DNA of 48,539 nucleotides, from NCBI GenBank assembly GCA_014360655.1, contig JACIXC010000019.1, forward strand, positions 1 to 48,539, written 5' to 3'. The stretch comes from Actinomycetota bacterium (GTDB taxonomy: Bacteria > Actinomycetota > Geothermincolia > Geothermincolales > RBG-13-55-18). Shown here piece after piece: positions 8,525 through 38,895 of the stretch; position 1 is the stretch's first letter; every line of letters starts with the position of its first letter. Under the pieces are notes generated by a model that ran no database searches, was not told where the DNA came from, and saw nothing but the letters and a program-made list of their open reading frames with translations. Both the position numbers and the translations under genes were made by a program.

Positions 8525-8563
8525 GGGGATGGAGGCCGACGGAGGTGAAGGGAGGTGGCGGGT

Positions 8564-10006: not shown

Positions 10007-10035
10007 TTGACACGGGGGTATAATAGAAATGTAAC
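10007..10035 (+). promoter_or_regulatory. Promoter of the small Cys peptide gene
   Basis: A perfect TTGACA (10007-10012) is followed after 17 bp by TGTAAC (10030-10035). A perfect TATAAT also lies at 10019-10024. Either could be used. Both place the start of transcription a short distance before the ribosome site at 10047, so the peptide has its own promoter separate from the maturase operon. Confidence 0.6.
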
Positions 10036-10060
10036 GACACACTACCAAGGAGGTGGTGAG

Positions 10061-10126
10061 ATGAGGATCACGAAGATCCCGAGAAGGAAGGGCGGAACCT
10101 GCAAGTGCAATAAGAGCTGCGGCTAG
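10061..10126 (+). CDS. 21-residue Cys-rich peptide, candidate RiPP precursor
   Basis: ATG 10061 to TAG 10126. The peptide has a basic N-terminal half (MRITKIPRRK), then a Gly-Gly, then TCKCNKSCG with three Cys. A near-perfect ribosome site AAGGAGGTG sits five bases before the ATG. A promoter-like region lies upstream and a strong hairpin terminator directly downstream, so it is a complete single-gene transcription unit; this is why I accept such a short frame. It lies 120 bp downstream of a PqqD-like/radical SAM/SPASM gene on the same strand. The double-Gly before the Cys segment resembles leader-core boundaries, though the leader would be very short. Inference: substrate of the maturase, giving a cross-linked small peptide. 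Alternative: a metal-binding micropeptide. Confidence 0.6.
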   Translation: MRITKIPRRKGGTCKCNKSCG

Positions 10127-10137
10127 CACGCCCTGCA

Positions 10138-10167
10138 GGGAGGGGGCCAACACGGCTCCCTCCCTTT
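10138..10167 (+). terminator. Rho-independent terminator after the Cys peptide
   Basis: An 11-bp GC-rich stem (GGGAGGGGGCC with GGCTCCCTCCC, one G-T pair), loop AACAC, then TTT. It begins 12 bases after the peptide stop codon. Confidence 0.8.
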
Positions 10168-10281
10168 ACGTCGCCCGCCGACCGGCGTTGTTTTCCATTA
10201 CTTGCCATACGCTCCCGCTGCTTTCCCGCGAACATCAACCACCCACCCCAGGGGCTGCCATAATATACCATCATTTACCAT

Positions 10282-11340: not shown

Positions 11341-11555
11341 ACCCGTCACCCCTGAGAGATGGATTCCCCTCAATTTTATCATTTCCGGGATAACGTCAAG
11401 CAGAGCGACACGGGCCCGTTTTTCTTACGCCCGCGCTCATGGCGCGCGACCCCGCCCTTAAGGGCGGACGGCCCGTGCCAAGAAAGGGAAGCGCCCGGCG
11501 ACAAGCACGCTCGTCATGCCCACGCAACCGCGCCCGATGCCTTTCGCCCGCCTAG

Positions 11556-12929
11556 CTAAAGCTCTCCGCTGGCGCTGGTGAGGGCATCCTCCGGGGAAAG
11601 CAGTGACCCGGCTCGTTCTCCATCGCCGCCATGCGGCAAAGTGCCTCCCGGGACGACCCGCGGTCGGCGGGTCTCGCAGTCCTTGAACAGGGATATCTGG
11701 CCTCCGCGGCCGTCGCCTCCCTCCCCCGGATCGAAGCAGGCACGGATGTGTCGGCGGATGTCCTCCTCGCCGAAGCGGGGGCTATAGTACCGCCCGTTGC
11801 AGGTCACGAAATATCGGGCGCGCCTGCATGCCACGCCCAGCTTGGAGAGGGCTGCAAGATCGAGCGAATGCACGCGACGCGCGGCTACGATCCTGCGCGC
11901 CGACTTCGTGCCGATACCGGGCACCCGCAACAGTTCCTCGTAAGAGGCGCGGTTGACCTCCACTGGAAAATAATGGAGATTGCGCAGCGCCCACGCGGAC
12001 TTGGGATCCAGGTCCCCATCCAGGTCGGGATGTTCCTCGTCCACCAGCTCCCGGGCCGTGAAGCCGTAGCGGCGCAGCAACCAGTCCGCCTGGTAGAGGC
12101 GGTGTTCCCGCAGGAGGGGAGGCTCCAGGAGCGGCGGGAGCCTGGGGTCCTCCGAAACGGGCACGAAGGCCGAATAATATATCCTGCGCAGCCCGTATTC
12201 ACGGTAGAGCCCCTCGGCCAGGGTGATGATCTCCAGGTCGCTCTCCGGGGTGGCTCCCACTATGAGCTGCGTCGTCTGTCCCGCACGCACCAGGGGTGCC
12301 GCACGAGGCGAGGCCCTCCTCTCCTCCCGGTCTGCCTCCACGAGACGGCTTACCTCCCCCATGGGACGCAGGATGTCCTCGCGCTTCTTGTCGGGCGCAA
12401 GGAAGCGCAGGCTGCCCTCGGATGGGAGCTCTATGTTCACGCTGAGGCGGTCGGCCAGGAGTCCCGCTTCCCGTATCAGTTCCGGAGACGAGCCCGGGAT
12501 GACCTTCAGGTGGATATAGCCGCGGAAGCCCTCCTCCCACCGCAGGATCTTCGCGGTGAGGACCAGCCTCTCCATGGTGTGATCGGGACTCACCCACACG
12601 CCGGAGCTCAGGAAAAGCCCCCGCACGAGGCGGCGCCGGTAATAGTGCATGGCGAGGGCGGCCACTTCCCGAGGCGTGAAGGAGGCGCGGCGACGGCGGG
12701 CGGAAGCGCGGTTCACGCAATACGCGCAGTCGTAGACGCAGCGGTTGCTGAAGAGCACCTTCAGGAGGGGAACGCATCGCCCGTCGTCCGACCTGCTGTA
12801 ATAGATCCCCGGCAGGGAGGCGCTCGTGTCGTCCCGCTCCCAGCGCATCCTCGCCGAACCCGCGGAGGAACAGGTCACGTCGTAACGCGCCGCGGCTCCC
12901 AGTATGCGGAGTTTTTCCTCCAGGTCCAC
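11556..12929 (-). CDS. Radical SAM protein with helix-hairpin-helix (DNA modification/repair type)
   Basis: 457 residues. The radical SAM motif is C64-x3-C68-x2-C71 (CVYDCAYC), followed by GLFLSSGVW and a typical TIM-barrel pattern. A helix-hairpin-helix DNA-binding motif lies near residues 330-350 (LLRVPGIGTKSARRIVAAR). This layout matches the 'putative DNA modification/repair radical SAM protein' family, which in many genomes sits next to a gene for a uracil-DNA-glycosylase-like partner. No such partner is visible beside it here, which is unusual. The last 50 residues are low-complexity and may be a species-specific tail. Reaction not established; role in DNA repair is inferred from the family. 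Confidence 0.85.
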   Translation of the reverse strand: MDLEEKLRILGAAARYDVTCSSAGSARMRWERDDTSASLPGIYYSRSDDGRCVPLLKVLFSNRCVYDCAYCVNRASARRRRASFTPREVAALAMHYYRRRLVRGLFLSSGVWVSPDHTMERLVLTAKILRWEEGFRGYIHLKVIPGSSPELIREAGLLADRLSVNIELPSEGSLRFLAPDKKREDILRPMGEVSRLVEADREERRASPRAAPLVRAGQTTQLIVGATPESDLEIITLAEGLYREYGLRRIYYSAFVPVSEDPRLPPLLEPPLLREHRLYQADWLLRRYGFTARELVDEEHPDLDGDLDPKSAWALRNLHYFPVEVNRASYEELLRVPGIGTKSARRIVAARRVHSLDLAALSKLGVACRRARYFVTCNGRYYSPRFGEEDIRRHIRACFDPGEGGDGRGGQISLFKDCETRRPRVVPGGTLPHGGDGERAGSLLSPEDALTSASGEL

Positions 12930-26241: not shown

Positions 26242-27184
26242 CTCCCGTCGCCGTCTCCCTCAGCCATGGAAGGCTCCCATCGAAAACTGTCCCCTTTCTT
26301 GAGAGCCTCCTCAGCGCGGCGCGGCCGGAAAGCGGGCCATGGAACGCCCGCCTTGAAAACCAGCCCCTTCGCTGCCGGTCTTCCTACGTTCACCCACGCG
26401 TTCACCCACGCGAGCCGTCGCTCACGGAGGCGCCGCTTCAATCCCCGTGGACATCCGGCAGGGTATAATCTATAGCATTACCCGTCGCCAGACGGATCCT
26501 CAACAGGTGGGGTTCTCCGAGGGGAATCCCATGAAGCGGCCTTTTCCGCTCTGTCTTCCCATCCTCCGGGGCAAGCGGAAGCGCTTTCTCGGTTACTTTT
26601 GCTTCCCTTGCTTCTCTTGCTACCTTTGCTTCCCATTTTTTCATTGTCTCCATTGTCTCCATTACCTCCATTGCTTCACTTACTTTTCTTATTTCCCATG
26701 CATCAACCGCATCAATTGCTTCCATTGATCTTCCTGTTTCCATCGCTTCCATCGCTTCCTTTACTTCTCCCGTTTCCTCCAGCGCCTCTTTTCTCATTCT
26801 CCGCTCCCTTCCTTGCCGATCATCTCCGCCGGTACCGCCGGGTGGTGCCACTCACGTAACCCACCTACATGCATGCCATACTCCCCAGCCGCGGGAACCC
26901 GGTCCCGTTCCCATGTCATAAACACAACCCGGCGTTGATAATATTAAGCGGAGGGAACGACAATTGCTTGATGACCGTTAGCAGGCCATGGCGGCCAGAC
27001 ACTCATCTCGCCCTCCCGCCTACCCGGATAGCGCGAATATCCGCGAGGCGCGGGTTTTTCCGGACACCTTTCCTGCCCTATACCCTCGGTGTCCCGGCGT
27101 GCCCTCTCCGGTCATCGAGGATACGCACCCGGGTAATCCCTAAGGCTCTAGTAATCGTAGATCGAAGATGTGACCCCATACCCC
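26242..27184. other. 943-bp gap with a low-complexity pyrimidine tract
   Basis: Between two leftward genes. The segment 26596-26790 is made of loosely repeated TTGCTTCC/CCATTG words. On the minus strand it reads as a charged helix rich in MEAMET, on the plus strand as a Cys/Phe-rich string. Neither has codon use or a start that persuades me, though a TATAAT-like box at 26463 and GAGGGG before ATG 26531 exist on the plus strand. The rest shows no gene or clear terminator. Confidence 0.5.
26596..26790. repeat. Degenerate short tandem repeat, pyrimidine-rich on plus strand
   Basis: Runs of TTGCTTCCA/TTGTCTCCA-type words of roughly nine bases repeat imperfectly about twenty times, an old microsatellite or minisatellite. 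Strand asymmetry is strong (C/T on the plus strand). Confidence 0.6.
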
Positions 27185-29839
27185 TCAGGGGACGGTGAAG
27201 CCGACCGAGTCGTGTGCCCAGGTCCTCGCCCGGTTGTACATGGCCCGCTCGCAGATGACCGGCCCTCCCGAGGTCACCCGCACCTTGGTGGAGATGCGCT
27301 CGCAGGTCAGCTGGTCGTGCAGGGGGAAGTTGGCGCGGGAGTTGCCGGGGATGACCGCGGCGTCCCAGGCGGGCACGTTCTTCTCCCCCTCCTCGGTCAT
27401 GAAGGTGAGGTCCACCGTGACCGGGCCCGGGTTGGGGTTCTGCACGCAGATCCAGGTCTGGAAGTCGCCCTTGGTGCAGCCCTCGGCCAGGTACCAGATG
27501 TCGCTCGGGGAGGTCACCCCGACGGAGTCGTGGGCCCAGGTCCTCGCCCGGTTGTACATGGCCCGCTCGCAGATGACCGGCCCTCCCGAGGTCACCCGCA
27601 CCTTGGTGGAGATGCGCTCGCATACGAGCTGGTCGTGCAGGGGGAAGTTGGCGCGGGAGTTGCCGGGGATGACCGCGGCGTCCCAGGCGGGGACGTTCTT
27701 CTCCCCCTCCTCGGTCATGAAGGTGAGGTCCACCGTGACCGGGCCCGGGTTGGGGTTCTGCACGCAGATCCAGGTCTGGAAGTCGCCCTTGGTGCAGCCC
27801 TCGGCCAGGTACCAGATGTCGCTCGGGGAGGTCACCCCGACGGAGTCGTGGGCCCAGGTCCTCGCCCGGTTGTACATGGCCCGCTCGCAGATGACCGGCC
27901 CTCCCGTGGAGACCACCTTGGTGGAGATGCGCTCGCATACGAGCTGGTCGTGCAGGGGGAAGTTGGCGCGGGAGTTGCCGGGGATGACCGCGGCGTCCCA
28001 GGCGGGGACGTTCTTCTCCCCCTCCTCGGTCATGAAGGTGAGGTCCACCGTGACCGGGCCCGGGTTGGGGTTCTGCACGCAGATCCAGGTCTGGAAGTCG
28101 CCTTGCGTGCAGCCCTCGGCCAGGTACCAGGTGTCGCTCGGGGAGGTCACCCCGACGGAGTCGTGGGCCCAGGTCCTCGCCCGGTTGTACATGGCCCGCT
28201 CGCAGATGACCGGCCCTCCCGTGGAGACCACCTTGGTGGAGATGCGCTCGCATACGAGCTGGTCGTGCAGGGGGAAGTTGGCGCGGGAGTTGCCGGGGAT
28301 GACCGCGGCGTCCCAGGCGGGGACGTTCTTCTCCCCCTCCTCGGTCATGAAGGTGAGGTCCACCGTGACCGGGTCCGGGTTGGGGTTCTGCACGCAGATC
28401 CAGGTCTGGAAGTCGCCTTGCGTGCAGCCCTCGGCCAGGTACCAGGTGTACGGGAGGTCCGAGATCCGCTGGGCGTAGATGTCGGGATATGCTGCGGCGT
28501 TGCGCTTGTCTTGCCAGGTGATGACGGCGCCGCCGCTACCGTCCGGGGCTATCTGCGGTTCTTCGGCGTCGCCCGGCGATCTTGTGCGCACGGCCAGCCC
28601 GTTCGCGGCCCAGAGGGCACGCCCCGATGAGTCCAGCTTCTGGGCGTAGATGTCCCATTTGCCGCTGCGGCGGTCCTGCCAGGTGATCTTTGCCCCTCCG
28701 CCTATATCCGGCGTCATCTGCAGGTTTATGGCGTCACCGGCCGGGCCGCTGCGCACGGCCACCCCGTTGGCGGTCCAGAGGGCACGCCCCGAGGAGTCCA
28801 GCTTCTGGGCGTAGATGTCCTTTACAGCGTTGCGGGTATCCTGCCAGGCGATAACGCAACCGCCGCCCACTCCCGGCGTGATGCGGGGCTCTTCGGCGTA
28901 ACCGGCCGGGCCGCTGCGCACGGCCACCCCGTTCGCGGTCCAGAGGGCACGCCCCGTGGAGTCGACTCTCTGGGCGTAGACGTCCGGCGTTTCCACCCAG
29001 GTGATGATGGCGCCGCCGCTACCGTCGGGCGTGATCCGGGGGTCCTCGGCTTGCGTCGTGCCGGTGCGCACGACTATCCCCGATGGACACCAGAGGATGT
29101 TCCCCGCGGAATTGATCCTCTGGGCTTTTATGTCTCTGTCGCTTTCACACCAGGTGATGATGGCGCCGCCGCTGCCGTCGGGGGTGATCTGGGGTTTCAT
29201 GGCGCCGCCCCCGCTCAAGCACACCCCGTTCGCGGTCCAGAGGGCACGCCCCGCGTAGTCGATCATCTGGGCGTAGACCTTGAAAGTGGCATCGCGCCAG
29301 TCGTACCAGGTGATGATGGCGCCGCCGCTGCCATCGGGGGTGATCTGGGGCAGGTAAGCGTTGTCCGCCGGGCCGCTGCGCACGGCCACCCCGTTGGCGG
29401 TCCAGTAGACGCCCCCCGAGGGGTTGACCCTCTGGGCGTAGATGTCGCTTACGTCGTCGCGGTAATCCTGCCAGGTGATGACGGCGCCGCCGCTCCCGTC
29501 GGGCGTTATGCGGGGATTGCGGGCATCACCGTCCGGGCTGAGGCGTACGCCCACCCCGCTCGCATTCCAGAGGACGCGTCCTGCGTAGTCGACCCTCTGG
29601 GCGCATATCTGGGAATGGCCGCCCCTCATCTCCTGCCAGGCGATGATGGCTCCCCCGGCCTGGTCCGAGGCCGGTTGTGGATGGAAGGCGCCGCCGGAAT
29701 CGGTGCGTACGCCCACCCCCTCATCCGTCCACCGCGGCTCGGCAGCGTCGGCCGGGGCCACGCCGAGGCAGAGCATGGCGAGCAGCAGGCAGGCTGGGAG
29801 GGCCCTCCACATCGCACGACTCCTCACGAGAACCTCCAT
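27185..29839 (-). CDS. Secreted repeat protein: propeller-like repeats plus four WYLAEGCT domains
   Basis: 884 residues from ATG 29839, preceded by AAGGAGG; a further 33-residue in-frame extension is Arg-rich and unlikely. Signal peptide: MWRALPACLLLAMLCLGVAPADAAEP. The N-terminal half has about nine repeats of roughly 45-48 residues with the motif ITPDGSGGAIITWQD...YAQ, which suggests a beta-propeller. The C-terminal 420 residues are four nearly identical 105-106 residue units beginning WYLAEGCT (DUF5719-like wording), each with ICVQNPNP and ICERAMYN. The gene ends within the last unit and no anchor is seen. Extracellular; possibly adhesion or polysaccharide-binding (inference). It is a single-gene unit on its strand. 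Confidence 0.85.
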   Translation of the reverse strand: MEVLVRSRAMWRALPACLLLAMLCLGVAPADAAEPRWTDEGVGVRTDSGGAFHPQPASDQAGGAIIAWQEMRGGHSQICAQRVDYAGRVLWNASGVGVRLSPDGDARNPRITPDGSGGAVITWQDYRDDVSDIYAQRVNPSGGVYWTANGVAVRSGPADNAYLPQITPDGSGGAIITWYDWRDATFKVYAQMIDYAGRALWTANGVCLSGGGAMKPQITPDGSGGAIITWCESDRDIKAQRINSAGNILWCPSGIVVRTGTTQAEDPRITPDGSGGAIITWVETPDVYAQRVDSTGRALWTANGVAVRSGPAGYAEEPRITPGVGGGCVIAWQDTRNAVKDIYAQKLDSSGRALWTANGVAVRSGPAGDAINLQMTPDIGGGAKITWQDRRSGKWDIYAQKLDSSGRALWAANGLAVRTRSPGDAEEPQIAPDGSGGAVITWQDKRNAAAYPDIYAQRISDLPYTWYLAEGCTQGDFQTWICVQNPNPDPVTVDLTFMTEEGEKNVPAWDAAVIPGNSRANFPLHDQLVCERISTKVVSTGGPVICERAMYNRARTWAHDSVGVTSPSDTWYLAEGCTQGDFQTWICVQNPNPGPVTVDLTFMTEEGEKNVPAWDAAVIPGNSRANFPLHDQLVCERISTKVVSTGGPVICERAMYNRARTWAHDSVGVTSPSDIWYLAEGCTKGDFQTWICVQNPNPGPVTVDLTFMTEEGEKNVPAWDAAVIPGNSRANFPLHDQLVCERISTKVRVTSGGPVICERAMYNRARTWAHDSVGVTSPSDIWYLAEGCTKGDFQTWICVQNPNPGPVTVDLTFMTEEGEKNVPAWDAAVIPGNSRANFPLHDQLTCERISTKVRVTSGGPVICERAMYNRARTWAHDSVGFTVP
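27188..28451 (-). repeat. Four tandem 315-318 bp coding repeats
   Basis: Units start at about 27201, 27519, 27837 and 28152 (read on the plus strand), nearly identical in DNA. Units differ by one in-frame codon: two encode KVRVTSGG (318 bp) and two KVVSTGG (315 bp). The two types are grouped, the shorter type nearer the N-terminus. Such identity indicates recent amplification or gene conversion. Confidence 0.9.
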
Positions 29840-30287
29840 GAGAACCTCCTTCCTTCCCTCTCGCGGGGCTCTCTTCCCCAAAGGCCTCGTCGGCGCTCTC
29901 CGTTTTCCGCGTATCGTCCTTCGTCCCTCTCTCTTCAACGTCCGGACTCATCCCTTCTTTCCACCCACGGCAACCCTTCCTCCCACCTCTTCACGCGTAG
30001 CCCCCCTTGCTCTCCTACGGGGTCTCCGGACGCTAAATGCGTGGAGGTCTCCCCTCGTTTCCGGGCGCGCCAGGCGGCGTGCTCCCGCCTCGAAAAAGAA
30101 CGGCAAAGGCGCCGCCCGGACACCGGGTTCACGGCAGAGCCCCAACGATTTGGTCTTGTGGTGATACGCCGACCGCCGTGTCATGGTTCCCCTGTATCCA
30201 TGTAATATTATACCATTTTGTATGCTCCACTCTACACCTCTTGTTACCATATATTACCATATTTTAAGAAGGTCGCCATGGTGCCCT
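29840..30287. other. Upstream region of the secreted repeat protein, no gene seen
   Basis: GC-rich to about 30180, then AT-rich with several TACCAT/ATATTA words (30200-30265). The promoter for the leftward secreted protein should lie here but no clear boxes can be named. No supported coding frame. Confidence 0.4.
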
Positions 30288-30456
30288 TGAACCCTGCCCC
30301 TGAACCCTGTCCTTGATCCCTGCCCCTGAACCCTGTCCCCGAACCCTGTCCTTGAACCCTGCCCCTGAACCCTGTCCCAGAACCCTGTCCTTGATCCTTG
30401 CCCTTGATCCTTGCCCTTGATCCCTGCCCTTGATCCCTGCCCTTGAATCCTGTCCC
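30288..30456. repeat. Minisatellite: 13 tandem copies of a 13-bp unit
   Basis: Units of the type TGAACCCTGTCCT/TGATCCCTGCCCC repeat exactly every 13 bp, thirteen times. A 13-bp period breaks the reading frame each unit, so open frames over it (Gly/Gln/Arg-rich on the minus strand) are artefacts. It lies 250 bp left of the integrated element. Confidence 0.9.
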
Positions 30457-30699
30457 CTCTTCCTCACGCAGCCTTTCCCTCCCTGGACGCCTCCGCGTGC
30501 GGCGGAAACTTTCGCGCCGCCTCGGGAGGAGAACGTCGCCGCCGGCAAGGCGGCGGGATCCCCGCCGCGGAAGGGGGCCCCTTTTTCCCCGCCGCGACCC
30601 GTCCCCGGGCGGCGCGGACAAACGGGCCGGGTCCCGGCACCCGGTACGATCCGGTCGCGGCTTTTCCTTTGCCGCTCCTCTCCCGGAAGCAAGAAAAAA

Positions 30700-30735
30700 A
30701 CAGGCCAGGCCCAGGGACATGCCCTCTGACCTGGT
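30700..30735 (-). terminator. Displaced tRNA-Phe terminator
   Basis: On the minus strand a CCAGGTC...GGGCCTGG hairpin ends in a run of T (AAAAAAA at 30694-30700 on the plus strand). Duplicate of the terminator beside the intact tRNA-Phe. Confidence 0.65.
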
Positions 30736-30790
30736 CTTTTACTGGTGGCGAGAGGCGGAATCGAACCGCCGACGCCAGGATTTTCAGTCC
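30705..30790. repeat. attL: 86-bp direct repeat with displaced tRNA-Phe 3' half
   Basis: Matches 38782-38867 in 84 of 86 positions (differences at 30729 and 30741). Bases 30743-30790 equal the 3' 48 nt of tRNA-Phe including CCA, anticodon-stem side and T arm; the 5' half is absent. The left part (30705-30735) is the hairpin that follows the tRNA. This is the original 3' end of the tRNA gene, displaced by integration. Confidence 0.92.
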
Positions 30791-31140
30791 GATAAGCGGG
30801 TTTTTCTCCTATTTTTACCATTTTCTTTTTTTCTCTTACAATCCTTATTCTTCGCATGGTTAAGCCATAAATGGAGGGGTAGTTTTCCTTTTACCTGTTT
30901 TTCCCTCTCTTCTCGTGCGTCCCGTTCTTCGGGAGCATTTCGGGAGCGCGGCTTCGAGGAGAAGGGAGGAATCGGAGTTTGGACGTTTCGGATTGCCCGA
31001 TAGATGGTAAAATAACAGCGCCGTGAGGCGTATAAGGGAAAATATCGGTTTCCACATTGTTCTCAGTCAGCCTGTCGAGGCCTGAGCCCGAAACTAGGGT
31101 CCAGGCTTAAAGTGGTCGGGGAAGCGAAGGGGAGGAGACC
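30791..31140. other. Element left end, noncoding
   Basis: 350 bp between attL and the membrane-protein gene. The first 80 bp are T-rich (TTTTCTTTTTTTCTC area) and the rest shows no supported gene. It probably holds the promoter of the gene at 31141; integrase arm sites may also lie here but I cannot define them. Confidence 0.4.
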
Positions 31141-31470
31141 ATGAGCAGCGCGAATTATTTCGCTATCGGGGTGGCGTTGCTGGTTGCCTGCGCCGTGAGC
31201 CTGGGGGTGTTCATCTACATGTATGCGGCGGGGGAAGGCTCTTCGTATGGCAAGCCGCCGAAGCGGAAGACCAGCGCCCTTCCACTACAGCAGAAGGAAT
31301 ACGACGCCGAATACGAAGTAGCCCTCAAGAAGTACGAGGACGCAAAGGCCACAGCTTCTGCGGAGCGTAGCCTGTGGCTGATACTCATAATCGCCGTGGG
31401 AGCCCCGCTGTTCATCCTGGCCTCGCTTTTCTTCATACTTTCAGCGGTCGCTAAGCCGCGTGAGGGTTAG
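31141..31470 (+). CDS. Small two-TM membrane protein, candidate satellite cargo
   Basis: 109 residues. One transmembrane helix near the N-terminus (about 7-30, IGVALLVACAVSLGVFIYMY), a charged helical segment (about 45-75, KEYDAEYEVALKKYEDAK) likely to form a coiled coil, and a second transmembrane helix (about 79-103, LWLILIIAVGAPLFILASLFF). AGGAG lies before the ATG. It is the only gene between the terminase end and attL and faces the leftward operon, the place where PICIs carry accessory genes. No family recognised. A role in phage exclusion or host fitness is speculation from position. Confidence 0.7.
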   Translation: MSSANYFAIGVALLVACAVSLGVFIYMYAAGEGSSYGKPPKRKTSALPLQQKEYDAEYEVALKKYEDAKATASAERSLWLILIIAVGAPLFILASLFFILSAVAKPREG

Positions 31471-31534
31471 TCCGGTTGTGACGAGAGTGTAGGTGTAGTG
31501 ACGCACCTGCTCCGGGTGAGCCGGGGCCCCACCT

Positions 31535-31864
31535 TCAGGTGCCCGACCCCTTGCGGAGCTCCTCCATCACCTTCAGCTGTGCTTCCTCCTCCGGGGAGAG
31601 CAGCCCGTGCTTGCGGAGGAAAGCGATCTCTGCGGCGGGATTGCAGTGCTTAGGGGGATCCCCATATTCTGGCGCCTCGAATTCCCACCATGCGGCGGGG
31701 CGGAGGCCGGGCGCGCACGCCGCCATGAGCTCCTCCCGGTGTTCCTTCCAGGCGGCACGCTTGAGGAAGGGCGTTTCAAAGGCGGACCTCCCGGCTTTCC
31801 CGATCCACAACTCGAAGAATTCAGCATCGGAAAGTTCGTTCCGTCTCTTGCGTCGCTTCGGCAT
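31535..31864 (-). CDS. Phage-associated small protein beside small terminase
   Basis: 109 residues. The basic start MPKRRKRRNELSDAEF is followed by the wording RPAAWWEFEAPEY and EIAFLRKHGLLSPEEEAQL. That pattern (RP-x-AWW-x-FEAPE ... LRRHGLL-x-EE) recurs in small phage proteins encoded beside terminase genes, so I read it as phage-derived; the function is not established. Its ribosome site GGGGAGGTG overlaps the last codons of the terminase gene, five bases apart, so it is translated from the same message. It is the last gene of the leftward operon; a GCACCTG...CAGGTGC hairpin (about 31503-31541) lies at its end. Confidence 0.75.
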   Translation of the reverse strand: MPKRRKRRNELSDAEFFELWIGKAGRSAFETPFLKRAAWKEHREELMAACAPGLRPAAWWEFEAPEYGDPPKHCNPAAEIAFLRKHGLLSPEEEAQLKVMEELRKGSGT

Positions 31865-31868
31865 ACGA

Positions 31869-32177
31869 TCACCTCCCCGGGGGCCGCCCCAGCGGGCCGG
31901 GCGGCTCCTCGTTGAAGCCTAACTGTTTCCAGGCCCGAAAGAAGGCGAGCCGGGCTTCTTTCTCCACCTGCAGGAGGGGGTTAGCCCGCTGGCGCCCGGA
32001 AGGGTCGGTGACGACGAGGCCTTCTTCTTGTATCGCCTCCCACGCCTCCCGGTATCGGTCGTAGGCCTCCAGGGCCACCTGCAACAAGACCAGGTCGGAC
32101 GGCTCCAACATCCACGTGGCGTTTAGCGCCGCCCAGATCTCCTTCGATTCCTTACTCAATTTTCGTGGTGCTTTCAT
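31869..32177 (-). CDS. terS: Phage terminase small subunit, P27 family
   Basis: 102 residues, the normal size for this family. The protein begins with a basic helix (MKAPRKLSKESKEIWAAL), then an LLLQVALEAYDRYREAWEAI helix and the hallmark segment EGLVVTDPSGRQRANPLLQVEKEARLAFFRAWKQLG. In phages it recognises pac or cos DNA and recruits the large subunit to the procapsid. No large subunit is encoded anywhere in the window. In phage islands a lone TerS redirects packaging by a helper phage, and that is the reading I favour here. It follows the HNH remnant by about 90 bp, as in many phage packaging modules. Confidence 0.85.
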   Translation of the reverse strand: MKAPRKLSKESKEIWAALNATWMLEPSDLVLLQVALEAYDRYREAWEAIQEEGLVVTDPSGRQRANPLLQVEKEARLAFFRAWKQLGFNEEPPGPLGRPPGR

Positions 32178-32266
32178 CGTTCAGCTCCCCAATTCCTCAT
32201 ATGCGGTTACGAGTTTCTCTCGCAGAAAGGTAAGCGTCGGTCTGCCGAGATGATTCGCCAGACTTT

Positions 32267-32434
32267 TTACCTACCCCTACCATGAATTCTCTCATGACAC
32301 TCACGGCATAGTGCCGTAAGATTATCCAGGGCGTCCCTTCCTCCTTTTCTCTTTCTTGAGGCGCTTTGGGGCTTAAATCGTCCGCCTTTGAGCGCCTTTC
32401 CCAAAAAACAGCCGCAAACAAGCGCCGCTTTCAT
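32267..32434 (-). CDS. HNH endonuclease remnant or minimal HNH-like protein
   Basis: 55 residues from ATG 32434 to TAA 32267. The C-terminal half carries the clear HNH signature RDALDNLTALCRECHERIHGR (final His-Asn-type helix with C-x2-CH), and an upstream Cys pair is present (VCGC). The first His-His/Asp-His beta-hairpin motif normally between them is missing, replaced by a basic stretch (RFKPQSASRKRKGG), and an in-frame stop lies just before the ATG. It is therefore probably a decayed copy. HNH nucleases sit next to terminase genes in many phages and aid packaging, which fits its place before terS. Confidence 0.5.
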   Translation of the reverse strand: MKAALVCGCFLGKALKGGRFKPQSASRKRKGGRDALDNLTALCRECHERIHGRGR

Positions 32435-32577
32435 CGCCGCCGCCTATCCCCGCATCCCCGCCCCGCGCTCCCGGGGCGGGAGGAATAAACCCTCTTATGC
32501 GCATTGCAACGCCGGCCTTTTGTTGACCCTGGACGTCCTGGATGCGCGCGTGACTTCACCGCCTTATGCAACACGGC

Positions 32578-33216
32578 CTATCCCTTCCCTTGTTGGGCAA
32601 ACCCCACCCCCGCATCCTCCGGGGGGCTATCCCCCCGCGCTCGACCGGATCCCCCACCCTTGAGGGCGCACAGGGCCCGCTTCCTCCAGGCCGCAAGGCC
32701 CGACACATACGCCTTAAGGGTCAGGGGGTCCTCCACCCACTCGGCCCCACGGTCCAGCTTGTCCTTGGTTTCATATATCAGGTCGAAGGCGGCCAGGTCC
32801 TCCGGCTTCCGGGGCTTTGGCAACCCTCTTTCGGCCTCGAGGGAAGCCTTGCGCGCGAGCTCCCTGCAACGCCTTCTCTCCTTTTTCGCCTCCTCCTCCC
32901 GGCGCAGGCAATCCCGCTCCTCCCGGGAAAGGGGACGGTCCAGGGGAACCCCGGCCAGGTCGGCGGTATACTCCAGCGCCCGCTTGAAGTCCCAGCCGTT
33001 GACGGCCTGGAGAAAATCGATCGCATCTCCATGCGCGCCGCAGCCGTAGCAGTTGAAGCGCTGCCCTTTGGGGTCCACCACGAAGGAGGGGGTCTTCTCG
33101 TCGTGGAAGGGACAGAGGCCCCGGTAGAGCCGCCCCGCCTTCTTCAGTTGCACGTAGCCCGAGACGACCTCGACGATGTCCAAGCGAGCCTTAACGGCTC
33201 CGATGACGCTATCCAT
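32578..33216 (-). CDS. CHC2 zinc-finger primase-like protein (no TOPRIM)
   Basis: 212 residues from ATG 33216; a longer in-frame start at 33270 is unlikely. Residues 1-75 match the DnaG N-terminal CHC2 zinc domain: LYRGLCPFHDEKTPSF with C35 and H38, then NCYGCGAHG with C56 and C59, and DAIDFL. The rest is a charged helical region and a basic tail; no TOPRIM catalytic domain is present, so it cannot prime on its own in the DnaG way. It may load or assist another primase, or be DNA-binding only. It overlaps the preceding nuclease-like gene by eight bases (ATGGATAG), a sign of tight coupling. Part of the element's replication module. Confidence 0.8.
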   Translation of the reverse strand: MDSVIGAVKARLDIVEVVSGYVQLKKAGRLYRGLCPFHDEKTPSFVVDPKGQRFNCYGCGAHGDAIDFLQAVNGWDFKRALEYTADLAGVPLDRPLSREERDCLRREEEAKKERRRCRELARKASLEAERGLPKPRKPEDLAAFDLIYETKDKLDRGAEWVEDPLTLKAYVSGLAAWRKRALCALKGGGSGRARGDSPPEDAGVGFAQQGKG

Positions 33217-33592
33217 CCTCCACCTCCCCGAAAACGGCTTTCGGAGAGGCCTCAGGAGGCGCGACCTCAACCCGGCAAGGGGTTTTATATGCGCCAGTTT
33301 CCTCCAGGAGCCCGTTCGTGACCAGGGGGAGCCAGTCGCGGAAGTCCATCACCACCAAAGCCCCGCGCCTCCCGGCTTCCTTGATCACCAAGACCACCGG
33401 CTTCCCGTCCGCGCTGTATTTTCTCTGCGTCTCCCGGAAAAGCGACCATATGGCGAACCGTTTGCGCACTTTGCAGTCTATGTGCATGGGCCCGAAGGTT
33501 ATATCGTCAACGCTCCGGCCCAGGCCCACGCGGCGCTCGCACCCCAGGGCTTGAGCCACGCTCCGCTCAAACTTTTTCCACGCTTTGTCCAT
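33209..33592 (-). CDS. PD-(D/E)XK nuclease-fold protein
   Basis: 127 residues from ATG 33592 (GGGGTGAT upstream); a longer frame opens at 33616. The arrangement suggests a small PD-(D/E)XK enzyme of Holliday-junction-resolvase or VRR-like type: an N-terminal helix with E9 (KKFERSVAQALG), S28-VDD (D29/D30), then the core H38-D39-C40-K41 (D-x-K) and a strand VVLVIKEAGRRGALVVM. The residues fit the catalytic plan, but the assignment is by pattern only. It sits between the unknown 184-residue gene and the CHC2 primase gene, overlapping the latter, which fits recombination or replication-intermediate processing. Confidence 0.6.
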   Translation of the reverse strand: MDKAWKKFERSVAQALGCERRVGLGRSVDDITFGPMHIDCKVRKRFAIWSLFRETQRKYSADGKPVVLVIKEAGRRGALVVMDFRDWLPLVTNGLLEETGAYKTPCRVEVAPPEASPKAVFGEVEDG

Positions 33593-33655
33593 CGTCCGAT
33601 CACCCCCACAACACACCGCATAAAACCCACATTATACCCCGCATAAAACAAGCCC

Positions 33656-34210
33656 TCATACGCCCTGACCTGCACTTTTAAAAAAGGGTGGGTTAACCCT
33701 GGGGTTAAGGGGAGGGTTAACCCCCCGCTTAACCCCGCCAGGTTCATGGCCCTCCATAACTTCCGCACTTTTCCAATATCCGGCCTCCAGGGTCAGGAAG
33801 GAGCCCCGCCTGTCCTGGCCGCGCCGGCCGTGCTTCCACAGGGTGGTAGGGTGGGTGTAGAAGGTTCCCCTTTCGGTCCGAACCAGAATATACGCAGGTT
33901 TATACTCCTCCAGCCAGGCCACGTATATGCGTAGCCTTCCCGATGAGGCGGCATGACCCTCAATGCTCCATCTATCCCCCAAGGGAAGCACCTCCAGGCG
34001 GTCGGTCGCGGTGTTCTCGATGACCCTCCCGGAGTAGAGCCGGGAAATACGGATAGCCCTCTCCGCATCCGAGAGACCGGGAAGGTCGGGATCCCGGTCG
34101 GGAGGAAGCTTGGCTGGAGGGACGGCGTGCTCGGAGATGACCCTCTCCAGCTCCTCCCACATCTCTTTTTCCACGACCACCCGCTTGGCCTTATCGAGGT
34201 AGTAGCCCAT
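33656..34210 (-). CDS. Unknown element protein, 184 residues
   Basis: Begins MGYYLDKAKRVVVEKEMWEELERVI, followed by a Pro/Asp-rich stretch and a beta-rich core (RLRIYVAWLEEYKPAYILVRTERGTFYTHP). It ends in a proline-rich tail with a repeated NPP/LNP motif coded by GGGTTAAC boxes. No family recognised. It lies between the DUF3987 gene with its iterons and the nuclease-like gene, all on one strand, so it is probably part of the replication operon. The ATG 34210 has a GGGGTGAT ribosome site. Confidence 0.65.
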   Translation of the reverse strand: MGYYLDKAKRVVVEKEMWEELERVISEHAVPPAKLPPDRDPDLPGLSDAERAIRISRLYSGRVIENTATDRLEVLPLGDRWSIEGHAASSGRLRIYVAWLEEYKPAYILVRTERGTFYTHPTTLWKHGRRGQDRRGSFLTLEAGYWKSAEVMEGHEPGGVKRGVNPPLNPRVNPPFFKSAGQGV

Positions 34211-34229
34211 ATGATCACCCCTTTACGTA

Positions 34230-35582
34230 TTACGAAATAAACGAATTAAACGAATTAAGCCCCGTCATTCCCCCCTTATTTCGTTTTTTTCGTTTATTTC
34301 GTATGCCCGCATATCGGAAGAGCTCCGCAGGTCGACCGTCTGTCTCCACCCGTTCGTAAGTAATAAGCCCGACCGCCATGAGGCCAGCGAGCGCACGCCT
34401 GATCCTTTCGCTGGAAATGTTGCGAGACAGAAAGGCCGAAATCCCGGTCCGGGTCATCCCCTCGGGGTATGCCCCCCCGAGGGCGGCCAGAATGTCATCG
34501 GCTACAGGATCCCCGAAGCGGTCACCGAAGACGTATCTCGCCGACGCTTCGGCGTAATCCCATAACGAGAGGGCCGCGTGCAGGTGGATGCGGCGGATGA
34601 CCGGCGAGCAGTCTAGGAGCGCGTACAGGGTGGCGAGGCGCATCACTTGCGCCTCCGACCGGGCGATCATGGCCCCCAGCAGGCCGGGTTTCCCCTCGGA
34701 AAGTTCGGGGTATACCTCAGCCCACACCTGACGAGCCTCATCGTCCCGGCGAACCTCGGCCGTGTCCCGCGCGAAGTCGACGGCATCCTTGAGGCGACGG
34801 AGGAGAGGCGCGAAGTCCACTTGGGACAGATTGCCACCCTCTGGGAGACACTTGGAGCGACGCACGCACAGCCAAATAAACCGGTTGCCGAAGCCATTGC
34901 CCGCTTCCGTCTCTGTTAGGTGGCGCAACACCTCGTCTCTCGTGACATGGCCGACGACAGAAACGTGGGCGTCGGTGGCTTTCAGTGGGTCACGCCGGGT
35001 CAGCACCCGCAGATCCCCACGATCCCAGGCGTTGCGAATTACCACGGAGAGGGTGTTCCCCTCGCGGCGCATAACCTTCAACGGGGAAGCGAATTCGCTC
35101 TCGATGACGAAGAGGCGCTTATCTCCAACGCCGAGGTCATCGTCGCCGTTGCCGTCTCGCACCGTGTGGATGAGCCCCTCCCCGGAGGAAAGGCCGTGGA
35201 CCACCCGGTCCTTCCATGTGGGGTCTACTGTTTCCAGGAGACGGAGGACCTGGCCCCGTGCGCTGTCCTTCCGCCCCTTGGCGGTCTCTCCGACGAGGAC
35301 GAAGAACAGGTTAGTATGGTGGCGGTCGGCTTCCGCCACGAAATGTGGCCCCCGGCCTGTTAGGTTCCCAAAACCTGCCAGCAAGTAGGCCAACAGCGCC
35401 ACGGGGTCGGCCTCGGTGTGGGGCTCTATAACCCGCACGATGTCCCCGGCCAGGCCGTGATATGCATCCTCTGCCAGGGGCTCAGGCCAGGAGGGCACGG
35501 AGGGAAGATCAAATTCTTTCTCCTCGCTGCCAAAAACGATCTCAGAGATGGGATCACGCACCCTTATCGCCTCCCCTTCCAT
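34230..35582 (-). CDS. DUF3987-type replication ATPase/helicase with C-terminal winged helix
   Basis: 450 residues from ATG 35582; TTG 35588 is an alternative. A helical region (about 38-75) precedes the variant P-loop VGETAKGRKDS (numbered 99-109 from 35588), the G-x-T-x-K-x-RK form found in DUF3987 proteins of actinobacterial phages. Walker B-like RLFVIESEF and a sensor-type VVGHVTRDE follow. Residues about 375-430 form a winged helix (GMTRTGISAFLSRNISSERIRRALAGL) suited to DNA binding. The predicted role is element replication initiator/helicase. Its final codons are also the iterons at 34232-34302, so protein and candidate binding site are encoded together. It overlaps the 35554 gene by 29 bases. 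Confidence 0.78.
   Translation of the reverse strand: MEGEAIRVRDPISEIVFGSEEKEFDLPSVPSWPEPLAEDAYHGLAGDIVRVIEPHTEADPVALLAYLLAGFGNLTGRGPHFVAEADRHHTNLFFVLVGETAKGRKDSARGQVLRLLETVDPTWKDRVVHGLSSGEGLIHTVRDGNGDDDLGVGDKRLFVIESEFASPLKVMRREGNTLSVVIRNAWDRGDLRVLTRRDPLKATDAHVSVVGHVTRDEVLRHLTETEAGNGFGNRFIWLCVRRSKCLPEGGNLSQVDFAPLLRRLKDAVDFARDTAEVRRDDEARQVWAEVYPELSEGKPGLLGAMIARSEAQVMRLATLYALLDCSPVIRRIHLHAALSLWDYAEASARYVFGDRFGDPVADDILAALGGAYPEGMTRTGISAFLSRNISSERIRRALAGLMAVGLITYERVETDGRPAELFRYAGIRNKRKKRNKGGMTGLNSFNSFIS
34232..34302. other. Candidate replication origin: six 9-bp iterons as an inverted set
   Basis: Three 9-bp units (ACGAAATAA, ACGAATTAA, ACGAATTAA; 34232-34258) and three inverted units (TTATTTCGT, TTTTTTCGT, TTATTTCGT; 34276-34302) flank a 17-bp GC-rich centre. 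The set lies within the last codons of the DUF3987 ATPase gene. The AT-rich iterons stand out strongly from the high-GC surroundings. In staphylococcal islands the origin is an iteron array beside or downstream of rep, which supports an origin. The alternative is a transcription terminator or a cruciform. Confidence 0.6.
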
Positions 35583-35820
35583 ACCCAAGTCCTCGGTGAA
35601 GTGCCCCCTCGATGAGCTCGCGCATCTTCCATGGCGCGACCTCGAGGACGCCCCTCTCCCTGAGCCGATCGGAAACCCAGAGCGCCGCTCCGACCTCTTC
35701 GAGCGAGAGCGTGCCCGGGTCGAGGCCGCCGTAGCGCTGCCGCTCGGCCTTTCGCACCTCCGCCCGGGGGTCGGCGATAATAGCGTTGACGTCCCGGACC
35801 CAAAAATTAGGCTTTCTCAT
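35554..35820 (-). CDS. Small unknown element protein, 88 residues
   Basis: From ATG 35820 (MRKPNFWVRDVNAIIAD), which overlaps the end of the excisionase-like gene; a slightly longer frame opens at 35832. Helical and charged, with no motif recognised beyond VGAALWVSDRL. It overlaps the DUF3987 gene start by 29 bases. The chain of overlaps from 36025 to 34230 shows a single translationally coupled operon. Possibly an early control or replication accessory protein; function unknown. Confidence 0.65.
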   Translation of the reverse strand: MRKPNFWVRDVNAIIADPRAEVRKAERQRYGGLDPGTLSLEEVGAALWVSDRLRERGVLEVAPWKMRELIEGALHRGLGYGRGGDKGA

Positions 35821-36025
35821 CGCCCCCTCCACCTCCTCCCTCGCGGATTAGCCTCCCTACGATGTCGGGCGGAATTCTCCAATAACGGCCAAGCCGGATG
35901 GCCGGAATTTCCCCGCGCTGGAGCAACCTGTAAACCTCCCCCACCGGCACGTTGAGGGCCTGGGCGGCCTGTTCAACCGTGAGCAACCCGCCACCCTTTA
36001 CCGACGACCTTCTCTTCCCACTCAT
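35807..36025 (-). CDS. Excisionase-like small HTH protein
   Basis: 72 residues from ATG 36025, which has AGGAGG nine bases upstream; an in-frame extension to 36091 is unlikely. Residues 15-60 form a MerR/excisionase-type helix-turn-helix (LLTVEQAAQALNVPVGEVYRLLQRGEIPAIRLGRYWRI, split over the two helices and wing). A short acidic Gly-rich tail ends it. First gene of the leftward operon, transcribed away from the integrase side. By family and position it is the likely directionality factor (Xis) and may also act as a regulator at the adjacent repeats. It could equally be a plain transcriptional regulator. Confidence 0.78.
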   Translation of the reverse strand: MSGKRRSSVKGGGLLTVEQAAQALNVPVGEVYRLLQRGEIPAIRLGRYWRIPPDIVGRLIREGGGGGGDEKA

Positions 36026-36113
36026 CTCGCTGTTCCTCCTTTCGCTTCTCGCCCCGTTCTCGGGGCTTTGACATCCCTTCTCGTCCAACATATCATGAGG
36101 GCCATCTATAAAA

Positions 36114-36223
36114 CGCTTACAATACGCTTACATTCGCCTGCCCCCTTTCATACGCGCTTCACTTGACTTCTCCCCCTTAATGTAGTATTAAGGTTATAGA
36201 TATAACGCTTACCAAGCGCTTAC
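36114..36223. promoter_or_regulatory. Divergent control region with two pairs of 11-bp operator repeats
   Basis: CGCTTAC occurs four times as two pairs, each exactly 11 bp apart: 36114/36125 and 36206/36217. All have the same orientation and similar flanks (ACGCTTACAAT, ACGCTTACATT, ACGCTTACCAA, GCGCTTACATT). One pair lies just upstream of the excisionase operon, the other between the rightward promoter and its first gene. An 11-bp period places the sites on one DNA face, fitting cooperative binding of a regulator to both promoters. Confidence 0.7.
36163..36191 (+). promoter_or_regulatory. Rightward promoter of the element's regulator gene
   Basis: TTGACT (36163-36168), 17-bp spacer, TATTAA (36186-36191). 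The predicted transcript start is near 36198, just upstream of the second operator pair (36206-36223), so a bound regulator would block transcription. AGGAG (36228-36232) precedes ATG 36238. Confidence 0.65.
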
Positions 36224-36237
36224 ATTTAGGAGCCCGG

Positions 36238-37440
36238 ATGAATGGTGAGGCGATAATCGAGGAATATGTGGCCTTTGCCAGGGGCGCCGGCTTTCCGGCC
36301 CTCGACCCGGCGAAGCATCACGATGCCATAGAGGCGGCCCTGGCCTCCCGGGAGGAGGATTTTTACAACACCGAAGAGGTGTGGGGAGAGCTCCTTCCCT
36401 TCACCAAGGAGCGGGGCAAGAAGTTTGTTGAAGCCCTCCGGGAATATGACCTTTCCCAGGCGCGCCCCCCGGACATACAATCTCCGGCCCTGGAGGGAAA
36501 ATGGTATCGGGCGCGCTCATACACCCTCACTTGCCGGGAGGGCCGGTTCCCACGGATCTATCCGCCACCCCCCGGGGAAACCCCGGAGATGGTCACTGTA
36601 AAGGAATGGTGGATCGAGGCGGCCTCAAAGCAGGTGGTGGAATACGCCCTGGAGGAGGGGGTCTTGGAGGAAGCGGTGAAAGCCCTTCTCGCGTTGACCC
36701 CGGAGCCGGAACGCCGCAGCGCCCGGAAAAGCCCGCCTATGCCGGAGGAGACCAAGGGCGAGGCCCTCGCCTTCGTCCGAAAATATGGGCCCTTAGGTTT
36801 GCTCTTCCGGGACATCTACGCCTTTACGACCCGCTTCTTAGGATCGTCCCCGCCGCGGGTGGAATTCCGGGTGACCTTAGGGGCGCAGTTCCAGCGCACG
36901 GAACCCCCCTCTTTACCCTTAAAGGAGCACTTTGGTTATCACCTGCGGAACCCGGAGGCGATCTACAAAGAGATCTTGGTAAAACCCCGTCTCTCCCTCC
37001 ATGACGTGCAGGGGTTGGTTATAAATAGGCGTGATCTTTTCCGGGAGTATCGGGAAGCGGTGCACGAGATATATTATGCGGCCCTGGATTTCAAGCGGGC
37101 CTGCTACACCCTCCAGGGCTTAATCGAAGACCCCTTCGGCTTGGAACTCCTGGAGCGGGCGCTCTCTCGATGCCCGCTACGGTTAAGCCGGGAGGGCGGG
37201 GTGCGCTTCGTATTGAAACCCCGCTGTCTTTTGGACGCCCTCTATTTGCACGTGGCCCAAGGGCACGCTTTAGGAGGCCTGGAGTGGCGCGAGTGTAGGG
37301 GCTGCGGCAGGAAGTTCATCCCCCAGGGTCGGGAAAAATACTGCACGCAACGGTGCCGCTCGAGGACCAACGTCCGCAAGTGGCGCGCAAGAAAAAACCC
37401 CCCGCCCGGGAGGGAGCCCGGTGAAGGGCGGAGGGCATGA
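36238..37440 (+). CDS. Element protein with C-terminal zinc ribbon (CGNR-like), candidate repressor
   Basis: 400 residues, MNGEAIIEEYVAFARGAGF onward. A helical body of about 340 residues has no recognised fold. Near the end is a CGNR-type zinc finger: ECRGCGRKFIPQ then YCTQRC, followed by a basic RSRTNVRKWRARK helix able to bind nucleic acid. It is the first gene of the rightward unit, preceded by AGGAG and the promoter at 36163, and directly precedes the integrase. In PICIs this slot holds the master repressor (Stl/Rpr). No HTH is obvious, so a repressor role is inference; it could instead be a recombination or accessory protein. Confidence 0.6.
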   Translation: MNGEAIIEEYVAFARGAGFPALDPAKHHDAIEAALASREEDFYNTEEVWGELLPFTKERGKKFVEALREYDLSQARPPDIQSPALEGKWYRARSYTLTCREGRFPRIYPPPPGETPEMVTVKEWWIEAASKQVVEYALEEGVLEEAVKALLALTPEPERRSARKSPPMPEETKGEALAFVRKYGPLGLLFRDIYAFTTRFLGSSPPRVEFRVTLGAQFQRTEPPSLPLKEHFGYHLRNPEAIYKEILVKPRLSLHDVQGLVINRRDLFREYREAVHEIYYAALDFKRACYTLQGLIEDPFGLELLERALSRCPLRLSREGGVRFVLKPRCLLDALYLHVAQGHALGGLEWRECRGCGRKFIPQGREKYCTQRCRSRTNVRKWRARKNPPPGREPGEGRRA

Positions 37441-37577
37441 TGGGCCGTGTGGCGGTTTCCTCGCGGCCCATGGTCTCCTCAAAGAAGGCCAACAAGTGAA
37501 GTGTAACATCCGGGGGTGACACTGCCAGGCGAGCTGTCAGCCTGGGGGGTTAGAATAGGCCGGGAAAGGAGGGAGCC

Positions 37578-38702
37578 GTGGCCTATATCAAAAAACGCGC
37601 CTGGCCGTCGGGGAAGATCTCCTACATCATCGGCTTCCGGGACCAGCACGGCCGCTGGAGGGAGAGGACGGCCGGGCCCCGGAGAAAGGACGCGGAGGCC
37701 CTCCTCGCGCGGGTTCAGCGGGAGATCGCCGCGGGGACCTACGGCCGGGAGGGGGACATCACCTTCGCGGAGTTTCTGGACGGCTACCTCCGGACGCGCG
37801 ACGACCTAAAGGAAAGCACCCTCGCCGACTATGAAAGGACGCTGCGCAAGCACGCCCTGGGAAGGATAGGCAAGCTCCCCTTGCGGGAAATAACCCCGCG
37901 GACGGTCCAGGCCCTCCTTTCCGACCTAGAGATGGACGGGGTGAGCCCGGCCTTGCGGGGGAAGGTGCTCCGTTACCTCAAGGCGGCCCTGCGCCATGCG
38001 GTCAGCCTGGAGCTCATCGACCGGGATCCCTGCCGCGCCATAAGGGCCCCAAGGGTGAAGACCAAAGAACAGCGCCACCTGGCTCCCGGGGAAGTGGAGG
38101 CCCTGATCCAGGCCGCGGAAGCCGAGGTCAAACCCATCATCGCCCTGGCGGCCTACGCCGGCCTCCGCCAAGGGGAGATCCTGGCCTTGACGGGGGCGGA
38201 TATAGACTTCGCCCGGGAGCACATAACCGTGAGGAGGACCTACCATTACGCCCACGGCTTCTCCGACCCCAAGACCCCGGCCTCCAGGCGCGTGGTGCCC
38301 ATGATCCCCACCCTTAAGGCCATTCTCCTCGAATATTACCGTTCCCGGGGGACGCCGCGCCCGGACGACCTGGTGTTCTCCAACCGGGCGGGGAAGCCCA
38401 TCGACCGGCGCAACCTGGTCAACCGGGGCTTCGAGCGCGCCCTGGAGGCTTCCGGGGTCCCAAGGATACGCTTTCACGACCTTCGCCATACTTACGCCAG
38501 CATGAATATTGAGGGCGGGGTGGACCCCAAGACCCTTCAAGCCATTATGGGCCACTCGAGTATCCGGGTGACCATGGACATATATGGCCACCTTTACCGG
38601 GAAGCCTTCCAGCGGGCCGCCAGGGCCCTGGAGGCGGTGGTGTCCGGCGGCCCCAAGGTCATCACCCTGCCCAAGAGGGAGGGGAAGGGGGATGGCCGAT
38701 AA
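37578..38702 (+). CDS. int: Tyrosine recombinase integrase
   Basis: 374 residues from GTG 37578 (AGGAGGG upstream). An N-terminal arm-binding domain (about 1-60) is followed by a SAM-like core-binding domain (62-155) and the catalytic domain. Catalytic residues are complete: R197 (AGLRQGE), K232 (SDPKTPAS), H300 and R303 (HDLRH), H326 (GHSS) and nucleophile Y336 (DIYGH). It lies 118 bp from tRNA-Phe, whose 3' half is the attachment site, so it very likely integrates and excises the element. The upstream gap has an inverted repeat CCAGGC/GCCTGG near 37526 that could be an arm site. TAGAAT just before the ribosome site gives it a possible promoter of its own. Confidence 0.95.
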   Translation: MAYIKKRAWPSGKISYIIGFRDQHGRWRERTAGPRRKDAEALLARVQREIAAGTYGREGDITFAEFLDGYLRTRDDLKESTLADYERTLRKHALGRIGKLPLREITPRTVQALLSDLEMDGVSPALRGKVLRYLKAALRHAVSLELIDRDPCRAIRAPRVKTKEQRHLAPGEVEALIQAAEAEVKPIIALAAYAGLRQGEILALTGADIDFAREHITVRRTYHYAHGFSDPKTPASRRVVPMIPTLKAILLEYYRSRGTPRPDDLVFSNRAGKPIDRRNLVNRGFERALEASGVPRIRFHDLRHTYASMNIEGGVDPKTLQAIMGHSSIRVTMDIYGHLYREAFQRAARALEAVVSGGPKVITLPKREGKGDGR

Positions 38703-38779
38703 CCCGCGGAAACCCATCCCGCGTCCCAAACTTCGGGAGTATTTCGGGAACGAAAACCTCCACCTGCCCGACAAAGGAA

Positions 38780-38812
38780 AACCAGGCCCAGGGACATGCC
38801 CTCTGGCCTGGT
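38780..38812 (-). terminator. Terminator of the tRNA operon
   Basis: Minus-strand hairpin ACCAGGCC...GGCCTGGT followed by TTTCC, eight bases beyond the tRNA-Phe CCA end. It is shared by both att copies. Confidence 0.7.
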
Positions 38813-38867
38813 CTTTTGCTGGTGGCGAGAGGCGGAATCGAACCGCCGACGCCAGGATTTTCAGTCC
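38782..38867. repeat. attR: 86-bp direct repeat completing tRNA-Phe
   Basis: Carries the element-borne tRNA-Phe 3' half and following hairpin. It differs from attL at two positions outside the tRNA; the tRNA part is identical, as needed to keep the tRNA functional. Crossover is probably in the anticodon-stem region, the end of the shared sequence. Confidence 0.92.
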
Positions 38868-38895
38868 TGCGCTCTACCGACTGAGCTATCTCGCC
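38820..38895 (-). tRNA. tRNA-Phe (GAA)
   Basis: 76 nt with encoded CCA. The acceptor stem is GGCGAGA/TCTCGCC, the anticodon stem is CAGGA/TCCTG and the loop is CTGAAAA with anticodon GAA. The T arm has GTTCGATTC. It is the insertion site of the element; its 3' half is the element's copy. Confidence 0.97.

Follow-up and report, generated by a model that had tools for sequence, protein, structure and literature searches.

A compact element inserted in a tRNA-Phe gene of an uncultured member of the Actinomycetota raises the question of whether it is a phage satellite, a prophage that has lost most of its genes, or an element that moves without phages. The best-studied integrated satellites are from Firmicutes and Gammaproteobacteria. 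The DNA analysed here, the window, is the whole stretch of 48,539 nucleotides (contig JACIXC010000019.1 of assembly GCA_014360655.1, class Geothermincolia), and the element within it is a unit of 8,077 bp bounded by a pair of 86-nt repeats (98% identical), the right copy sharing 48 bp with the tRNA-Phe gene. We conclude that it is probably an integrated phage satellite, which is favoured over a prophage wreck by the intact attachment (att) sites, the open reading frames, the lack of other phage remnants, and the existence of several elements of similar size that carry other genes. Strict membership of the phage-inducible chromosomal islands (PICIs) is not established.

The element and its target site

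The element has two divergent arms, with the integrase and a putative regulator on one, and an excisionase-type (xis) gene, a replication ATPase, a CHC2 protein, a resolvase-like protein and a terminase small subunit (TerS) on the other (Table 1). A first-pass annotation of this DNA had reported the 86-bp att duplication in tRNA-Phe, which stands; the left edge that it gave, 30743, lies slightly inside the repeat, which starts at 30705. The genes it named (integrase, regulator, helix-turn-helix [HTH] protein, ATPase, CHC2, P27 TerS and membrane protein) are all present, as are the repeats that it took for divergent operators and that we list as candidate operators; it missed the HNH remnant, which is decayed and sits between the CHC2 gene and TerS, and the Holliday-junction-resolvase-like gene. 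Family scans of the element genes give no match to terminase large subunit (TerL), portal, capsid, tail or lysis families, in agreement with its statement that structural, lysis and large-terminase genes are missing.

These features bear directly on one alternative, which we consider unlikely: that the element is the immobile remainder of a phage that shared its replication and packaging-start genes and has shed the structural part. The window order of replication gene, HNH remnant and TerS is what a deletion from TerL onward would leave, and the HNH remnant adjoins TerS. However, the two att copies are undamaged, with only 8.1 kb between them; the reading frames of int, xis, rep, CHC2 and TerS are open, at a coding density of 83% across the unit; and no portal, capsid, tail or lysis remnant is present in the element.

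In a congener (G001) the tRNA-Phe gene has near matches to both window flanks and lacks the element, which was therefore gained or lost after the two lineages split. The same tRNA-Phe in a genome of another genus of the family (G009) holds an integrase fragment 69% identical to that of the window and cut by the contig end. PICIs use a unique att site that prophages never occupy; among the few genomes examined, this tRNA-Phe is empty in G001 and carries the related integrase fragment in G009. The conserved flank region lies within ~500 bp of tRNA-Phe in G001, and the window stretch at ~26400-30700, where a 917-aa repetitive protein (27185-29938, minus strand) is encoded between that region and the tRNA, is thus a separate difference. 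Just beyond the distal att copy, a 13-bp unit is repeated in tandem about 12 times (30256-30460).

Table 1. Features of the element and its target gene, in window coordinates.
Feature	Coordinates	Strand	Match or remark
Distal att copy (86-bp duplication: tRNA-Phe 3' part + flank)	30705..30790		98% identical to 38782-38867
Small membrane-type protein	31141..31470	+	No family above cut-off
orf109, adjoins TerS	31535..31864	-	No match in families or phages
Short P27-type terminase small subunit (TerS)	31869..32177	-	PF05119 3.9e-12; TIGR01558 above cut-off
HNH endonuclease remnant, second half only	32267..32434	-	PF01844 8.1e-7, profile 22-46 of 47
CHC2 zinc-finger primase-type protein, no TOPRIM match	32578..33270	-	PF01807 4.7e-32
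Holliday-junction-resolvase-like protein	33209..33616	-	phrog_244 1.1e-6, phrog_2002 1.1e-4
orf184, N-terminus MGYYLDKAK	33656..34210	-	Similar start after rep gene in related elements
Replication ATPase, DUF3987-type, MCM-like fold (modelled), C-terminal winged helix	34230..35588	-	
Candidate replication origin, three direct + three inverted 9-bp iterons, core ACGAA	34231..34303	-	3' end of rep gene
orf92	35554..35832	-	
HTH_17 excisionase/AlpA-like DNA-binding protein	35807..36091	-	PF12728 7.3e-13; TIGR01764 4.1e-13
Divergent intergenic region, two CGCTTAC repeat pairs at 11-bp spacing, candidate operators	36095..36226		
Putative regulator, C-terminal zinc-ribbon motif, upstream of int	36238..37440	+	No Pfam family above cut-off
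Tyrosine integrase	37578..38702	+	L043 homologue 2.9e-56; G009 homologue 69%
att copy at integrase end, 48 bp inside tRNA-Phe	38782..38867		
tRNA-Phe (gaa), target gene	38820..38895	-	

The start codon of the CHC2 gene is uncertain, and the gene overlaps its resolvase-like neighbour. Neither the regulator nor the window TerS finds a relative when scanned against viral contigs, where the integrase has relatives of at most 43% identity; nothing in the phage collection matches orf109. The motif of the divergent repeats, ACGCTTAC, occurs again at 32230-32237, ~55 bp upstream of terS on the coding strand, and may either link terS to the same regulator or be there by chance.

The replication ATPase and a candidate origin

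A scan of genome contigs with the ATPase as query identifies relatives of 46-59% identity in several phyla, and those in viral contigs are at most 61% identical. The first-pass annotation called this protein a DUF3987 ATPase; the window protein itself has no match to PF13148 and five of ten aligned members do, so the name rests on the relatives and on structure. A first structure model from nine sequences was poor (pLDDT 58) and was set aside, and an AlphaFold2 model from 43 sequences has a pLDDT of 88 and a pTM of 0.84. The top solved structures matching this model are MCM replicative helicases (E ~2e-8, TM ~0.45), matches in a library of viral structures are to phage helicase, primase and DUF3987 proteins, and the last folded part (residues 361-426) has a winged-helix pattern in the model. 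The modelled fold is thus that of an MCM-like AAA+ helicase, which supports the earlier prediction that DUF3987 domains are replicative helicases of mobile elements (PMC5862659).

The iterons at the 3' end of the ATPase gene form the strongest short-loop inverted repeat in the element, and the candidate iterons of the first-pass annotation hold up. The array has the full score of 30/30 in the window and in five related loci (L008, L009/L022, L014, L016 and L034) and scores 27-28 in four more (L010, L011, L013 and L037), and in each case none of 200 shuffles reaches the value. The core varies between elements (ACGAA, GCGAA or ACGAC, with ACGCC in L101). When nine arrays, chosen for having the pattern, are compared between arms, 132 of 135 core positions agree (98%) and 76 of 117 spacer positions do (65%). 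Because the arms agree in the core and much less in the spacers, a simple hairpin is not favoured; a core that agrees within elements and varies between them is the pattern expected if each element's initiator reads its own iterons. The 9-bp array is absent from the distant ATPase members L036, L039 and L040, from phages P318 and Ibantik, and from viral contig L005. Judged from its sequence, the block in the 3' end of the rep gene is a candidate origin conserved across phyla; it could serve as a sequence marker in searches for further elements of this kind, and with the ATPase it would form a defined origin-initiator pair. The small genes that follow the iterons have only an MxYLxxAK start in common, and a homologous family is not demonstrated. 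A second cluster of repeats and palindromes, of the GGGTTAACCC type, lies at the orf184 end and beyond (33602-33736).

Packaging genes in the element and its relatives

The window TerS is 102 aa long, and the phage-type P27 TerS proteins compared with it are longer (142-212 aa). Its best alignments are to the TerS of L106 (39% identity, 62 bits) and of L042 (42%, 57 bits), with known phages and the local prophage lower, and in a tree of eight TerS proteins these three group together (support 97/99), apart from the phage proteins. A scan of viral contigs with a three-sequence TerS alignment finds only L106, which spans 10.8 kb, has a 24-bp exact repeat at either end, one of them at the end of a tmRNA gene, and encodes an HNH protein, a short TerS, TerL, a protease-like protein, a rep gene and an integrase. 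Other loci with the ATPase carry an HTH-type TerS (L034 and L037) or TerL (L038). The short form as a general mark of satellites is unproven, given two further loci: L166 has a TerS-like gene beside tRNA-Met with no TerL-like open reading frame after it, on a contig whose start is just upstream, and in L165 open reading frames resembling capsid and tape-measure genes lie near a TerS-like match.

One reading of the short TerS is that it mainly interferes with a helper while the satellite is itself packaged through a helper-like cos or pac site. Some known satellites are indeed packaged by helper-like cos sites and have no TerS of their own (PMC6092414), and the window TerS lacks the N-terminal extension of the compared phage forms; however, no cos or pac site and no interference gene was identified in the element, and we think this reading highly improbable.

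The first-pass annotation proposed to look for the same gene block at other tRNA genes of related genomes, and there the layout recurs with different packaging and replication genes. Four compact tRNA elements of the same class have both att repeats. L042 (G015, same order) is 8.75 kb long with a 59-bp repeat at tRNA-Leu and encodes an integrase and regulator divergent from orf106, a D5-type primase, CHC2, an HTH protein, P27 TerS and an HK97 capsid protein. L043 (G011, same family) is 7.5 kb long with an 85-bp repeat (88% identical) at tRNA-Ala and has an integrase and regulator divergent from an HTH protein, a DnaB-like helicase, an O-like initiator and an HK97 major capsid protein. The coordinates given for these capsid-carrying elements are 3453-4727 in L042 and 8709-10148 in L043, and each has its capsid gene without a recognised portal, protease or TerL. 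The other two are in G020, L093 at tRNA-Pro (3265-11696, 8.4 kb, 43-bp exact repeat) and L097 at tRNA-Cys (2886-12070, 9.1 kb, 45-bp exact repeat), and each encodes an integrase, an HTH protein, a helicase-like protein, TerL and TerS. The two lie on a single contig and, with neither capsid nor portal nor tail gene recognised, amount to packaging motors that lack a head. Across all four elements no gene is recognised for portal, tail or lysis functions, and most of their small proteins match nothing. Outside the class, L014, an 8.4-kb element at tRNA-Arg of a Nitrospirae genome with an exact repeat of 46 bp, has an ATPase of the window type together with an integrase, a zinc-finger regulator and an HK97 capsid gene. 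An apparently ordinary siphophage-type prophage of the same class (L044 in G019) has P27 TerS, TerL, portal, capsid and tape-measure-like genes. The viral contig L140 (8583 bp) has a 122-bp terminal repeat and is perhaps complete and circular; it encodes a DUF3987-type ATPase and a serine-recombinase-like protein, has a capsid-like gene that spans its ends, and is possibly another satellite.

The same chassis is found with no recognised packaging gene in L008 (tRNA-Leu, 6.4 kb) and L016 (tRNA-Cys, ~6.1 kb), as would be expected if such elements moved without phages, by conjugative mobilisation for example or passively, with TerS as a passenger. We find this quite improbable for the window element, as no relaxase or mobilisation gene is recognised in its family scans, the role of TerS is specific to packaging, and class members of the same build carry TerS, TerL or capsid genes.

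Several observations weigh against a satellite. One is the decay of the HNH gene beside TerS, and the TerS grouping rests on only eight short sequences. Others suggest that the element may derive from a phage by reduction. The replication module with its iterons is also present in the phage-sized viral contigs L111 and L113 (37-41 kb, their phage-type genes judged by eye), and the 46-kb contig L137 carries the ATPase together with TerS, TerL and portal. The closest ATPase relative found (61%) is in L101, a distant viral fragment of 6.8 kb in which rep and iterons run on into HNH, TerS, TerL and portal. The first-pass annotation had held that decay would be indicated if these genes formed one end of a complete prophage in close relatives; no such arrangement is seen in the related genomes searched, and L101 is the distant fragment that approaches it. 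On the other side, four elements of one class, all compact (7.5-9.1 kb) and with different replication and packaging genes, are not what independent random decay would be expected to produce, and the short form of TerS is common to L042 and L106.

If the element is a satellite, no helper of HK97 type is recognised in its resident genome. The first-pass annotation looked to a helper prophage whose large terminase would pair with the P27 TerS, and searches of the element's own genome with TerL nuclease, TerL ATPase and HK97 capsid models find no match; packaging would therefore need an outside phage. We infer from the gene sequences that a helper is used and that the element genes have regulatory and DNA-binding roles, in a cycle such as the following. 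The zinc-ribbon protein, as the putative master regulator, and/or the HTH_17 protein would hold the element silent at the paired CGCTTAC repeats until entry of a tailed phage with an HK97/P27-type packaging motor lifted the repression. The integrase and the HTH_17 excisionase would then excise the element at its att repeats, and the MCM-like ATPase, helped by the CHC2 protein, would initiate replication by binding the iterons within the 3' end of the gene that encodes it. The short TerS would steer the helper's large terminase to satellite DNA for packing into helper particles, and a new host would be reached through the helper's tail, with integration at tRNA-Phe.

Taken together, the loci may represent a group of satellites not described before, very small and integrated at tRNA genes, in uncultured Actinomycetota and other phyla; we judge the case for such a group evenly balanced. 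Its members would have a common chassis (integrase and regulator divergent from xis and replication genes) and interchangeable minimal packaging genes (TerS; TerS and capsid; capsid; TerL and TerS), and many would replicate from three direct and three inverted iterons inside an MCM-like helicase gene. Several compact elements in one uncultured actinobacterial class differ in their packaging sets of one or two genes; this suggests that satellites may form when packaging modules are exchanged on a standing integration-replication chassis, which bears on the origin of satellites and on how they change helpers.

Comparison with known satellites

The first-pass annotation classed the element as a PICI-type satellite, and its compact satellite-type build and gene organisation agree with this. 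Like PICIs, it has an integrase, a regulator, an xis-type HTH protein, att repeats, an optional TerS and a replication module with a candidate iteron origin, the first two and the replication module being in conserved order with a presumed master-regulator role for the zinc-ribbon protein; it has no phage structural or lytic genes, only TerS and the HNH remnant. However, PICIs are typically ~12-15 kb long (PMC6092414, Fillol-Salom 2018) and the element is 8.1 kb. Homologues of genes exclusive to PICIs were not identified in it, though no direct comparison with a PICI reference gene set was made. It also differs in its MCM-like DUF3987-type ATPase, separate CHC2 protein and zinc-ribbon regulator, in its uncultured actinobacterial host, and in having relatives that carry capsid or TerL genes.

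The model for the phage-inducible chromosomal minimalist islands (PICMIs) requires int, AlpA or HTH_17, a DUF3987- or DUF5906-type primase, and fis (PMC10803314). The element resembles these in its very small size, its integrase, its HTH_17/AlpA-type protein and its DUF3987-type replication protein, the last by relatives and structure only. PICMIs are from Vibrionaceae and are integrated at fis, whereas the element is in an actinobacterial tRNA-Phe, contains TerS, CHC2 and resolvase-like genes, and has an ATPase with no PF13148 match. A search of open-access text for satellites together with DUF3987 found only the PICMI paper (PMC10803314), which is not proof of novelty.

Capsid-forming PICIs (cf-PICIs) encode a whole head and packaging set of capsid, protease, portal, connectors, TerL, TerS and HNH (PMC10690885). 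The element shares with them a TerS with an HNH neighbour, here broken, and its relatives L042, L043 and L014 share an HK97 capsid gene, but the element has only TerS and the HNH remnant, and the relatives only capsid or TerS plus capsid. The Streptomyces satellites MulchRoom and MiniFlayer, which encode terminases, portal, capsid and scaffold but for which no integrase is known (PMC10690885), are likewise satellites of phages of Actinomycetota, but the window element is integrated and has an integrase and TerS only. By its build the element is closest to PICIs and PICMIs, and we class it as a new variant, a probable phage satellite and not a PICI.

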